Source: Rhodocyclaceae bacterium (lineage in GTDB: Bacteria > Pseudomonadota > Gammaproteobacteria > Burkholderiales > Rhodocyclaceae). From it: DNA of 64,000 nucleotides. Below, one piece after another: positions 8,265 through 63,745 of this stretch. The number at the start of each line of letters is the position of its first letter. The first letter of the stretch is position 1. The notes beneath the pieces are model-generated. The model saw only the letters and a list, made by a program, of their open reading frames with translations. It was not told the DNA's origin and searched no databases. The DNA lies in the NCBI GenBank assembly GCA_006218025.1, contig VBWA01000008.1:62001-126000 (forward strand), in the 5' to 3' direction. A program made the translations under genes and the position numbers.

Positions 8265-10190
8265 ATGCCCGTTATTTCCCTTGATCGCGCCTGTCTCGCT
8301 TACGGCCACGTCGCCCTTCTTGATCACGCCGCGATGCAAATCGATGCCGGCGAGCGGGTCGGGCTCATCGGCCGCAACGGCAGCGGCAAATCCAGCCTGC
8401 TGAAGGCCCTCGCCGGTCTCGGTACGCTCGACGATGGCGAGGTCTGGCGCGAGCCTGGCCTCTCCATCGCCTACGTGCCGCAGGAGCCCGAATTCGCCAC
8501 CCACGACACGGTCTTCGAAGCCGTTGCCGCCGGGCTGGGCGAGGTGGCGCGAGTGCTCGCCGAGTACCACGAGATCACCCACAAAGTCGGCGCTGGCGAT
8601 ACGGCGACCATGGACCGCATGCAGGAATTGCAGACGCAACTGGAGGCCAACGACGGCTGGCGGCTGAGTTCGCGCGTCGAACAGGCCATTTCGCGCCTCG
8701 CGCTGGATGGCGACGCCCGCGTCGATGCGCTTTCCGGCGGCGGCAAGAAGCGCGTCGCCCTGGCCCGGGCGCTGGTCGCCGAGCCGGAGCTGCTGCTGCT
8801 CGACGAGCCGACCAACCACCTCGACGTCGATGGCATCCTCTGGCTGGAGGATCTGCTGCGCGGTTATCAGGGGGCGGTCATGCTCATCACCCACGACCGG
8901 GTCTTCCTCGACAACGTGGCGACGCGCATCGTCGAGCTGGATCGCGGCAAGCTGGTGAGCTTTCCCGGCAGTTTCGCCGCCTATCAGGAACGCAAGGAGT
9001 TCATGCTCAACGAAGAGGCCCTGGCCAACGCCCGTGCCGACAAGATGCTGGCGCAGGAGGAAATCTGGATCCGCAAGGGCGTCGAGGCGCGGCGCACGCG
9101 CAGCGTCGGGCGCGTGCAGCGCCTCGAGCACTTGCGCGCGGCGCGGGCGGCGCGGCGCGAGCAGCTGGGCAAAGTCGATTTTCAGCTGGTGCGCGGCGAT
9201 GCCTCCGGCAAGCTGGTGGCCGAACTCGAAAACGTCAGCAAGCGATTTGTGACAACTGCGGGCGAAAAGGTCGTGGTGCGCGATTTCTCCTGCCGCATCC
9301 TGCGCGGCGACAAGGTCGGCCTGATCGGCGCCAACGGCACCGGCAAGACCACGCTGCTGCGCCTGATCCTCGGCCAGCTCGCGGCCGACTCCGGCAACGT
9401 CCGACTGGGCAGCAAAATCGAAGTGGCTTACTTCGACCAGTTCCGCACCCAGCTCGACCCCGATGCCCCTCTGCGCGAAGTGATCAGCCCGGGCTCGGAC
9501 TACGTCGAGATCGGCGGCACGAAGAAGCACGTGATCGGCTATCTCGAGGATTTCCTGTTCGCCCCGGAACGCGCGCGTTCGCCGGTCAAGTCGCTTTCCG
9601 GCGGCGAGCGCAACCGGCTGTTGCTGGCGCGCCTCTTCGCGCGGCCGGCCAACGTGCTGGTGCTGGACGAGCCGACCAACGATCTTGATATCGAAACCCT
9701 GGAATTGCTCGAAGCGCTGCTGCAGGACTACAGCGGCACGGTATTCCTGGTCAGCCACGACCGGGCCTTTCTCGACAACGTAGTGACGCAGACCATCGCC
9801 AGCGAAGGGAACGGGCAGTGGAAGGAATACGTCGGCGGCTACAGCGACTGGCTGCGCCAGCGGCCCGCAGGCGGCGCGGCGCGCTTCGATGCCACGGGTG
9901 GCGTCGAGGCAAAGCCCGGATCAAGAGTCGGCGCTGGCGACACGGCGAAAGCGAAGCCCCCCGAGCGCAAGAAGCTCAGCTTCAAGGAGCAGCGCGAGCT
10001 GCAAGCTTTGCCCGATCGCATCGCCGCGCTCGAAGCCGAGCAGGCAGTCCTGCAAGGCCGGCTGGGCGATCCGGCCTTCTATCAGGGGCCGCCCGATGCG
10101 GTGCGCGACCTGCAAATCCGGCTGGCGGCGGTCGATGCCGAGATCGATGCGGCGCTGGTCCGCTGGGAAGCTCTTGAGGCGAAGGGCTGA
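8265..10190 (+). CDS. uup: ABC-F ATPase Uup
   Basis: A 641-residue soluble protein with two ATP-binding cassettes and no membrane domain. First cassette: Walker A GRNGSGKS near 38-45, LSGGGKKR and LLLLDEPTNHLD. Second: GANGTGKT, LSGGERNR and VLVLDEPTNDLD. A C-terminal coiled-coil domain (about 560-640) follows, as in Uup, and the GYLEDFLF segment between the cassettes is typical of that subgroup. ABC-F proteins act on the ribosome, and Uup also influences precise transposon excision. Two copies of the dispersed 23-bp repeat (8585 and 9926) lie in frame and encode KVGAGDTAT and RVGAGDTAK, the second in the linker before the coiled coil. Length is normal (about 635). Confidence 0.93.
   Translation: MPVISLDRACLAYGHVALLDHAAMQIDAGERVGLIGRNGSGKSSLLKALAGLGTLDDGEVWREPGLSIAYVPQEPEFATHDTVFEAVAAGLGEVARVLAEYHEITHKVGAGDTATMDRMQELQTQLEANDGWRLSSRVEQAISRLALDGDARVDALSGGGKKRVALARALVAEPELLLLDEPTNHLDVDGILWLEDLLRGYQGAVMLITHDRVFLDNVATRIVELDRGKLVSFPGSFAAYQERKEFMLNEEALANARADKMLAQEEIWIRKGVEARRTRSVGRVQRLEHLRAARAARREQLGKVDFQLVRGDASGKLVAELENVSKRFVTTAGEKVVVRDFSCRILRGDKVGLIGANGTGKTTLLRLILGQLAADSGNVRLGSKIEVAYFDQFRTQLDPDAPLREVISPGSDYVEIGGTKKHVIGYLEDFLFAPERARSPVKSLSGGERNRLLLARLFARPANVLVLDEPTNDLDIETLELLEALLQDYSGTVFLVSHDRAFLDNVVTQTIASEGNGQWKEYVGGYSDWLRQRPAGGAARFDATGGVEAKPGSRVGAGDTAKAKPPERKKLSFKEQRELQALPDRIAALEAEQAVLQGRLGDPAFYQGPPDAVRDLQIRLAAVDAEIDAALVRWEALEAKG
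8585..8607 (+). repeat. dispersed 23-bp repeat, copy 1 (inside uup)
   Basis: AGTCGGCGCTGGCG followed by ATACGGCGA, a perfect match to the consensus. It is read in frame as VGAGDTA within the first half of Uup. Confidence 0.75.
9926..9948 (+). repeat. dispersed 23-bp repeat, copy 2 (inside uup)
   Basis: AGTCGGCGCTGGCG followed by ACACGGCGA, preceded by TCAAG as at copy 3. It is read in frame as VGAGDTA in the linker between the second ATPase cassette and the C-terminal coiled coil, a segment likely to tolerate insertions. Confidence 0.8.
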
Positions 10191-10281
10191 AATCTGGCGC
10201 CAAAAAGGACTGTTTTTCCAAGTCTCATCCGGCATGCACCGGATTTAGTCTCTACCCTGTCAGCCGGACAGGGAGACTCAT

Positions 10282-10557
10282 GTGGTTGTCATCAACGGAC
10301 AGCGTACTACCGCCATCGTGATCCGCCATCGCGGCGACAGCGTCACGCTGGTGCCGATGAAAAGCGGCAAGCTTTCGGCCAAGACGGTCGCCTTCGACGA
10401 GTTTCGCCAGGAGTGGAAGGAAACCGGTTACGCGCTGTCGCAGGCGCTGACCACCTTCCTGACGCACATCATGAAATGGGGCGCCTCGCTGGAAGTGGTG
10501 AAGGGCCTCGAAAAGCTCGCCGCACGCGACCGCTTCGTCGTCGCCAGCCTGTTCTGA
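10282..10557 (+). CDS. small conserved-looking hypothetical protein
   Basis: 91 residues, not recognised. It has a short beta-rich N-terminus (VVINGQRTTAIVIRHRGDSVTLVPMKSGKLSAKTVAFDEFRQEW) and a helical C-terminal half (ALSQALTTFLTHIMKWGASLEVVKGLEKLAARDRFVVASLF); no membrane segment or metal site. A GTG at 10282 follows a GGGAGA ribosome-binding site at good spacing, which supports translation. The stop overlaps the likely start region of the RNase H gene, suggesting coupling. Confidence 0.6.
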   Translation: MVVINGQRTTAIVIRHRGDSVTLVPMKSGKLSAKTVAFDEFRQEWKETGYALSQALTTFLTHIMKWGASLEVVKGLEKLAARDRFVVASLF

Positions 10558-11024
10558 ATTCCGGGATCGCGATCGACGCCACCGATTGCTGGCAGGCCTG
10601 GTTCGACGGTTCCGCCTTGCCCAATCCGGGCAAGATCGGCATCGGTATCCTGCTGCTTGCGCCCGATGGCCGGCGCAGCGAAAAATCCCGGCTGCTGACT
10701 GTCTCCGGCTGCAATAACGAGGCCGAGCTGCATGCCCTGTGCGCGGCGCTCGAAATGGCCGCGGCAGCCGGCGCGCGAAGGCTGCTGCTGCGCGGCGACA
10801 GCGATGTCGCCCTGCGCTATGTGCGCGGGCCGGACAGCACGCAGATTGCACGGCTGATTGTCCTGGTCGCAGATGCCCGTGAATGGCTGGGTCGTTTCGA
10901 GGATGTGCAGCTGGTCTGGATTCCGCGTCATCGCAACACCGAGGCGGATCGCCTGTCGCGGCAGGCACTCGGATTGCCGCCGACGCCGGCGCCCGTGACG
11001 AGAAGCCGGCGTCGGCGCCATTGA
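10554..11024 (+). CDS. ribonuclease HI family protein
   Basis: An RNase H-fold protein of about 155 residues that should cleave the RNA strand of RNA-DNA hybrids. All four catalytic acids are visible: Asp in WFDGSALPNPG, Glu in CNNEAELHALCAAL, Asp in LLRGDSDVALRYV and Asp in RHRNTEADRLSRQAL. It resembles the RNase HI-like group rather than classical RnhA. The start is uncertain: no ATG, GTG or TTG sits at the domain border. A CTG at 10554 overlapping the previous gene's stop is the nearest candidate, so translation may depend on coupling. The C-terminus ends in a basic RSRRRRH tail. Confidence 0.75.
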   Translation: MNSGIAIDATDCWQAWFDGSALPNPGKIGIGILLLAPDGRRSEKSRLLTVSGCNNEAELHALCAALEMAAAAGARRLLLRGDSDVALRYVRGPDSTQIARLIVLVADAREWLGRFEDVQLVWIPRHRNTEADRLSRQALGLPPTPAPVTRSRRRRH

Positions 11025-63093: not shown

Positions 63094-63719
63094 TCTCGCC
63101 GGAAATCCTGCTCGCCTTCCTTGCCGCCTCCGCGCTGGTCACCATCGCACCGGGGCCGGACAACCTGATGGTGCTGTCGGTGGGCATCAGCCGCGGCCGC
63201 ACCGCAGGCATCGGCTTCGGCCTCGGCTGCGCACTCGGTTGCTTCACGCATACGCTGTGGGCGACGCTGGGCATCGGCGCCGTGGTGCTGGCCTCGGAGG
63301 CCACGTTCACGACGCTGAAAATGGCCGGCGCCGCCTATCTGGTCTATATCGGCCTGATGGCTTGGCGGCATGCCGGGAAAATGGCGCTGGTGCAGATCGA
63401 TGCGGGTGCCGCGGAACCGATCGGGGTGCACCTGCGTCGCGGTTTCATCGCCAATGTCATCAATCCCAAAGTGGCTTTGTTCTTCATCGCCTTCCTGCCG
63501 CAGTTCGTCGATCAGACGCGCGGCGCGGTATGGCCGCAGATGCTGCTGCTGGGCGCCCTGTTCGCGGCGCAGACCGTGGTGATTTTCGGCAGCCTCGGCT
63601 GGTTCGCCGGCAGCATCGGCGCGCGCCTGCAGCGGCAGCCCAAGCTTGCGGTCTGGCTCGACCGCTGTGCCGCGGCAATTTTCATCGGGCTGGCTCTGCA
63701 TCTGGCAACGGCGCGCTGA
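63090..63719 (+). CDS. LysE/RhtB family amino acid exporter
   Basis: A 209-residue exporter with six membrane helices. LLAFLAASALVTIAPGPDNLMVLSVGISRGRTAGIGFGLGCALGCFTHTLWATLGIGAVV is the family signature region, and GFIANVINPKVALFFIAFLPQFVDQ is also conserved. It probably exports an amino acid such as a threonine or homoserine analogue. ATG at 63090 overlaps the MFS stop. A copy of the dispersed repeat follows 3 bp after its stop. Confidence 0.92.
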   Translation: MISPEILLAFLAASALVTIAPGPDNLMVLSVGISRGRTAGIGFGLGCALGCFTHTLWATLGIGAVVLASEATFTTLKMAGAAYLVYIGLMAWRHAGKMALVQIDAGAAEPIGVHLRRGFIANVINPKVALFFIAFLPQFVDQTRGAVWPQMLLLGALFAAQTVVIFGSLGWFAGSIGARLQRQPKLAVWLDRCAAAIFIGLALHLATAR

Positions 63720-63722
63720 CCG

Positions 63723-63745
63723 TCGCCGTGCCGCCGGCGCCGACT
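63723..63745 (-). repeat. dispersed 23-bp repeat, copy 12 (intergenic)
   Basis: On the minus strand: AGTCGGCGCCGGCG followed by GCACGGCGA, a perfect consensus copy preceded by GCAAG, directly after the LysE-type gene stop codon. Confidence 0.85.

Follow-up and report, generated by a model that had tools for sequence, protein, structure and literature searches.

As of 2020, a strong sequence preference in DNA uptake was presented as a trait of two families (PMC7811141). In the papers devoted to them, uptake sequences are described as relatively evenly distributed, scarce in coding and in newly acquired DNA, diversified into dialects, and accumulating neutrally under molecular drive (PMC7811141, PMC3630211, PMC2346458). 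For the uptake signal sequences (USS) of Pasteurellaceae, under-representation in coding and newly acquired DNA and molecular drive are put forward (PMC7811141); for Neisseriaceae, the account includes five members of the family without an abundant repeat resembling the DNA uptake sequence (DUS), and ComP is given as the binding protein (PMC3630211); ComP is a type IV minor pilin. Here we discuss a GC-rich repeat, the 23-mer AGTCGGCGCYGGCGNYACGGCGA, dispersed over a 64,000-nucleotide stretch from a Rhodocyclaceae bacterium (GenBank assembly GCA_006218025.1, contig VBWA01000008.1, positions 62,001 to 126,000; hereafter the window) and over the genomes of Sulfuritalea. The first-pass annotation of the window had listed twelve copies and offered three explanations: a DNA uptake signal, a binding site for a nucleoid or segregation protein, or a short mobile repeat tolerated inside genes. 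The first is the best supported, by abundance in both orientations, by a distribution that combines even spacing with intergenic enrichment, by turnover through point mutation in genes, and further by the phylogenetic range and by one genome in which the motif is degenerate. On these grounds we consider that the motif probably serves as a self-DNA uptake signal and owes its persistence to molecular drive.

Thirteen copies of the 23-mer, our query motif, are present in the window at no more than three mismatches, and 100 dinucleotide shuffles of this stretch hold none. A genome-wide count, which had been suggested as a check, was run on the assembly containing the window (G000; 4.44 Mb in 141 contigs, 99.97% complete, the window being C121:62001-126000): it gives 759 copies at up to three mismatches, 391 forward and 368 reverse, against a single match for the reversed pattern. 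All 31 Sulfuritalea genomes sampled carry the motif, with 74 to 779 copies each at the same threshold; in one genome from each of 30 other genera, the count is 0 to 9. In a wider survey of 395 genomes of the family, at up to two mismatches, many genera have no copies or a few, and others are motif-rich: g32 (535 copies in one genome), g62 (651 in one genome), g70 (199-464 in all four genomes), g88 (171-349 in all nine) and g43, where 18 of the 19 genomes have 73-500 copies and the remaining one has none. One genome of g47 has 34 copies, the other a single one. The g32 genome G061 harbours a clear variant, with AAAA on the left, a GG or AG spacer and CGGTG beside CGGCG, at 22 sites in 120 kb. 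Other variants, AGTCGACG or AGTCGACGCTGGCG in g69 and AGTCAG..CCGGCG in g34, recur among the matches listed; samples of 20 kb and 100 kb showed no enrichment of them, and we keep them as leads only.

Sites from 463 kb of G000 (93 sites) and from 400 kb of G002 (80 sites), the latter genome being one 3.80-Mb contig, give an identical extended motif, RAR-AGTCGGCGCTGGCG-RN-ACGGCGA-Y, with little information beyond it. The shared left flank noticed by the first-pass annotation is thus real: positions -3 to -1 are mostly purines (RAR). On the right there is a weak Y(T). The copies form a discrete mismatch class: in the 463 kb of G000, 26, 38, 16, 13 and 11 of them have 0, 1, 2, 3 and 4 mismatches respectively, and the reversed pattern finds three matches, all with four mismatches. 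Relative to an order-4 background, the motif ranks first among over-represented 11-mers in both G000 and G002 (400 kb of each). It is non-palindromic, with three GGCG units at motif positions 5, 11 and 19, as seen directly in the sequence; that the unit is not a long palindrome agrees with what we see by eye.

Three observations stand beside this description. Other uptake words were considered in G034, G036 and G032, in which the motif is absent from 100 kb each, and were set aside: the top words of G032 overlap and look like tandem repeats, in L122-L126 the very strong overlapping words TTCGCTGGGTT and CTGTATTCGCT. The exact motif occurs in 36 stretches of IMG/VR contigs (L147-L182), a set in which host fragments and true phages are not separated; further copies at up to three mismatches are found there at 0.06 per kb, a lower density than the 0.2 per kb of hosts. 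Finally, no report of this motif, including the string AGTCGGCGCTGG, nor of Rhodocyclales uptake sequences, was found in the open-licence PMC literature, broader topics being judged by titles among the matches listed.

The distribution along the chromosome was analysed in the same 463 kb of G000 (93 sites) and in 800 kb of G002 (162 sites), with a density of 0.20 per kb in both, i.e. about one copy per 5 kb. Intergenic DNA—delimited, as for all coding and intergenic counts here, by our own simple codon-usage gene caller—contains 33 of the 93 sites in 11.6% of the DNA of G000, and 58 of the 162 in 14.0% of that of G002. The positional bias near stop codons, which it had been proposed to check, is present: the first 30 nt past stops make up 1.6% of the DNA but hold 14 of 93 and 27 of 162 sites. 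Such an enrichment would suit an RNA-level element, for example a terminator or a small RNA (sRNA) target, but no orientation is clearly preferred, 22 copies after stops being co-oriented and 23 opposed, with 90 coding copies on the strand of the gene and 70 on the opposite one; nor is a palindrome visible in the unit (by eye), and we give this explanation next to no credit. Coding copies use all six strand and frame combinations in the G000 sample and five of the six in G002, which enlarges the earlier remark that the motif is read in several frames; the favoured peptides are KVGAGDTA-like and, in antisense, AVSPAPT-like.

Spacing is evener than uniform in the five pieces with a length of 60 kb or more (coefficient of variation 0.79 versus 0.98, P 0.0005, 2000 simulations), the longest gap being 16.6 kb versus a mean longest gap of 27 kb in the simulations. 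Site counts in 5-kb bins fall with decreasing GC content (rho 0.38; 0.69 versus 1.46 sites per 5 kb in the lowest and highest GC fifths), low GC being only a proxy for newly acquired DNA. The gaps themselves give no clear lesson: the longest of all, in C1 of G000, contains ordinary-looking genes. A 7,505-residue open frame (G000:C7:193842-216356) runs across the two longest gaps of C7, which are parted by one copy.

Even spacing also suits the second explanation of the first-pass annotation, which stays in competition and is the strongest rival even though we hold it unlikely: the motif would be the non-palindromic binding site, with a footprint of about 26 bp, of a chromosome-organising or nucleoid protein that needs evenly spread sites. 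Individual positions are conserved across the genus and no canonical ComEA was found (see below), both of which side with such a protein. Nevertheless, 20 evenly spaced 20-kb stretches of G002 contain 2 to 7 sites each, without strand pattern; the decay throughout the Sulfuritalea genome G016 and the absence from many genera of the family would be unusual for an essential structural site; and the scarcity in low-GC DNA, together with the use of nearly all reading frames, fits drive better.

The same stretches bear on a Chi-type recombination hotspot, read by a RecBCD/AddAB-like enzyme. Chi of Escherichia coli, GCTGGTGG, occurs at a density near one per 5 kb, and Chi is short and strand-biased. 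The motif has about that density and its GCTGGCGR core resembles Chi, but the locally G-rich strand of the 20 stretches carries 41 of 80 copies against 39 for the other one, in a rough test since the skew is near zero in several stretches, so that the direction of replication is only deduced. The strand bias relative to replication that it had been suggested to look for is therefore not seen, and a replication-strand signal is not supported. Besides, Chi would leave the ACGGCGA half unexplained, the motif is far longer than Chi and we know of no Chi near its length: a hotspot of this type is very improbable.

Turnover was followed by comparing orthologous loci. With the ViaA-like protein of the window, 18 related loci were found, of which L052 is Methyloversatilis; pairs were compared over the window and 17 related loci, a place with five or more mismatches being counted as motif-lacking. 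Among 533 coding site-ortholog pairs, 46 lack the motif: none with a gap of at least 15 nt, 11 with smaller gaps and 34 without any gap. These pairs come mostly from two conserved sites (31 site records); without them 37 pairs are left, three of which lack the motif, all ungapped. Mismatches at aligned coding positions form a graded series from 0 to 5. In genes, the motif thus comes and goes by point substitution and not by insertion, which contradicts there the third explanation of the first-pass annotation. A short mobile or gene-conversion repeat, inserting into genes and spacers, would account for the many near-identical dispersed copies, and among the 23 intergenic pairs, seven of which lack the motif, one does have a gap of at least 15 nt, the six others having smaller gaps; yet with this repeat rejected in genes by the ungapped alignments, we hold the whole explanation to be extremely improbable. 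At individual sites, the motif or a near-motif stands without insertion or deletion at 15351 in all 16 related loci that align and is absent in Methyloversatilis L052; at 17499 a nearly identical peptide is written in different codons in the outgroup; and the copy at 25604 is kept in L035 and L038.

It had also been envisaged that the same segments are simply conserved at the protein level in all orthologues. This is half the case: the peptide is conserved in most orthologues at the two conserved coding sites. As a full explanation, however, protein conservation fails. At positions with the same amino acid in these two sites, orthologues share the codon above expectation inside the motif, synonymous codons being held above the gene average, and other windows of the two genes rarely attain the excess of the motif window (3 of 256 and 10 of 442 do). 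Outside any protein, in the spacer that follows the enoyl-CoA hydratase gene, the motif persists at up to three mismatches in 21 of 29 orthologous places (28 genomes); its start is 4-22 nt past the first nucleotide of the stop codon, and the flanks differ. Synonymous constraint and this intergenic conservation together indicate that protein conservation does not explain the motif. The places without it belong to G016, G005, G007, G013, G019, G021, G030 and, for its second place, G025.

G016, which is 99% complete, contains no perfect copy, and 16, 23 and 50 copies at one, two and three mismatches, with four matches for the reversed control (free spacer). No replacement word appears among de novo 11-mers in 400 kb, and a replacement dialect is thereby rejected. 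This degenerate state looks like decay after loss of the maintaining force. Thin motif sets are also found in G025 (257 copies) and G021 (189). As a separate observation, CTCTGCGCCTC heads the list of over-represented 11-mers in the DNA sampled from G016 (L127-L146) and from G025 (L107-L111, L187), and its overlapping words suggest a short repeated unit.

If the motif is an uptake signal, a cell-surface receptor, probably a type IV pilin, would bind free DNA carrying it, ComEC would import this DNA and recombination would install it. Alleles nearer to the motif would thus be copied more often than those further from it, and molecular drive would keep the density at about one copy per 5 kb where constraints on protein or RNA leave room for it; upon failure of the system, as may have happened in G016, copies would decay by substitution. 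In this scheme the surface binding, the import, the drive and the receptor are what we infer. As to the machinery, ComEC is above cut-off in 29 of the 31 genus genomes, G016 and G000 included, the ComEC/Rec2 gene of G000 being located at C121:45483-47306, on the same contig as the window and about 15 kb to its left; DprA is found in 28 of the 31.

The observations in this paragraph weigh against an uptake signal. DprA has no match in G000, G001 and G013, and for G000, the very genome of the window, either an assembly gap or a true loss could be responsible. ComEA (TIGR00426) is above cut-off in none of the 31 genus genomes. When PF12836 was searched at cut-off in 14 chosen genomes, in frames under 320 residues, matches were obtained in G117, G034, G036 and G016, and none in G000, G002, G007, G010, G017, G018, G061, G091, G153 and G236. 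This ComEA gap is the strongest argument against reading the data as simple transformation. G016 still has ComEC, DprA and a PF16732 pilin despite the loss of the motif. Classical uptake sequences occur roughly once per kb, to be compared with 0.2 per kb here. In the locus L044, whose ViaA-like protein is 77% identical, there is no motif copy in 21.5 kb; perhaps this locus represents a further lineage in which the motif was lost or never arose. Lastly, the intergenic losses mentioned above are too gapped to be classed as substitutions.

Concerning ComEA-like domains, G016 has two small HHH_3 (ComEA-like) matches, at C104:780-893 and C111:15960-16109, which are lacking in the tested motif-rich members of the genus; a third one, at C80 among pseudopilin genes, may be GspK. 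Helicobacter is described as using another periplasmic receptor, ComH (PMC6877725).

The receptor itself was sought among pilins. The ComP domain PF16732 (ComP_DUS) is found in 30 of the 31 genus genomes, but also in 25 of the 30 outside genomes, and is therefore not diagnostic as a receptor marker. A survey of 30 loci, from 74 pilin-type matches in five genomes, points to a standalone pilin as a weak candidate. Its gene adjoins a conserved membrane-protein gene in G002, G010, G017 and G153 (the last from another motif-rich genus), the gene on its other side being common to G002 and G017 only. The standalone pilin of G016 adjoins the same membrane-protein gene, whose product has 74, 77 and 70% identity with its counterparts in G002, G010 and G017, respectively; the neighbour in G153 has 44% identity with the G016 one and 45% with the G002 one. 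In the globular part, taken as beyond the first 50 alignment columns, the G016 pilin is 35-40% identical to those of G002, G010 and G017, which are 51-56% identical among themselves, and the G153 pilin is 45-46% identical to these three. Of the 69 columns invariant in G002, G010 and G017, G153 keeps 52 and G016 41.

Two control families, PilE-like and FimT-like, put this pattern in proportion. There G016 is within the range of the others and no outlier, and we discarded these pilins as receptor. However, G153 is closer to the motif-rich genus members than, or as close as, G016 is in the candidate pilin and in the controls alike (in the control families 0.51-0.56 for G153 against 0.43-0.55 for G016, and 0.39-0.56 against 0.40-0.48), which weakens the receptor lead: only the low position of G016 appears particular to the candidate. 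A third control family offers only 13 comparable columns. All five candidate pilins are net acidic beyond the helix, and the lead, a weak one, draws on one loss event and five sequences. Further searches add little: a member at the standalone-pilin locus was not located in G000; relatives in the PDB amount to two weak N-terminal matches to geopilin (E 0.1 and 0.46); and the matches from NCBIfam and Pfam are limited to generic pilin N-termini. G000 does have a distant paralogue of the candidate (L010:712-1428), whose stop is followed at about 70 nt by a perfect copy of the motif.

Returning to the window, the places and strands of all twelve copies listed by the first-pass annotation proved correct, with 0-3 mismatches, and a thirteenth is added. 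Two perfect copies, at 8585..8607 (+) and 9926..9948 (+), lie within an ABC-F (uup-like) gene (8265-10190); just to its left, as the neighbour of the first motif-bearing gene, is a tRNA-Arg (cct) gene (8127-8202, minus strand). Another perfect copy, 17499..17521 (-), codes YSRRRRYGD within a RavA-like MoxR gene (17198-18598, -). The coding copies with mismatches are at 15351..15373 (+; one mismatch), antisense within a DUF364 gene (14764-15621, -); at 29002..29024 (+), within the RNase E gene (28288-31137, -), the weakest of the twelve with three mismatches; at 42266..42288 (+; two mismatches), within an AMP-binding enzyme gene (42072-43709); and at 50400..50422 (-; one mismatch), within an MFS transporter gene (49817-51106). 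The additional copy, 45243..45265 (-), has three mismatches and lies within the gene 43720-46137.

Five of the 13 copies are intergenic. The first-pass annotation also gave five for its twelve copies, four of them beginning close to a stop or a start; we find four that begin or end 2-22 bp from the preceding stop and one 28 bp upstream of a start. The copy at 14725..14747 (+; one mismatch) is separated by 17 bp from the stop of the DUF364 gene; that at 46974..46996 (+; one mismatch) is directly 3' of the stop of the enoyl-CoA hydratase gene (46178-46972); that at 60296..60318 (+; one mismatch) is 22 bp past the stop of an HpcH/HpaI aldolase gene; and the perfect copy at 63723..63745 (-) is 4 bp past the stop of the gene 63090-63719. 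The perfect copy at 25604..25626 (+) is the one upstream of a start, that of an aminotransferase gene (24443-25576, -).

A bolder proposal, which we hold as tentative and with less than even chances, is that a third, independently evolved self-DNA uptake system exists in the GTDB family of Sulfuritalea, with a signal of about 26 bp, present in six genera and recognised by a standalone pilin with no relation to ComP, and with an import that dispenses with a canonical ComEA. A signal of about 26 bp would be the longest described to our knowledge. If so, the self-labelling of genomes would also have evolved outside mucosal hosts, among environmental bacteria; the genera with and without the tag, with one natural loss, would form a comparative set for finding the receptor; and Sulfuritalea, a genus known mostly from environmental metagenome-assembled genomes (MAGs), would be marked as a probable natural transformer.

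How does the motif compare with known elements? Chi is, like it, non-palindromic, but no strand bias is found here. REP/RAYT elements likewise have many dispersed copies; here, by contrast, no palindrome is visible and there is no insertional origin in genes. The anatomy of the motif matches that of the Neisseria and Haemophilus uptake sequences, at about twice the length. The Pasteurellaceae USS has a short core with flanking tracts, whereas ours is one continuous GC-rich motif of different sequence. The relatively even distribution and the under-representation in coding DNA described for the USS are nevertheless shared (PMC7811141). With the DUS of Neisseriaceae, as reported, the motif has in common abundant copies, both coding and intergenic, and perhaps a variation in dialects (PMC3630211). 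The Neisseria DUS is given as a 12-mer with almost 1,500 copies (PMC2346458), against 23-27 bp and 0.2 copies per kb here; unlike in the Neisseriaceae, PF16732 is not specific to motif-bearing genomes and ComEA was not found in the 31 genus genomes. If an uptake signal is confirmed, what is new relative to these two systems would be a third lineage, a longer signal and possibly a different receptor.

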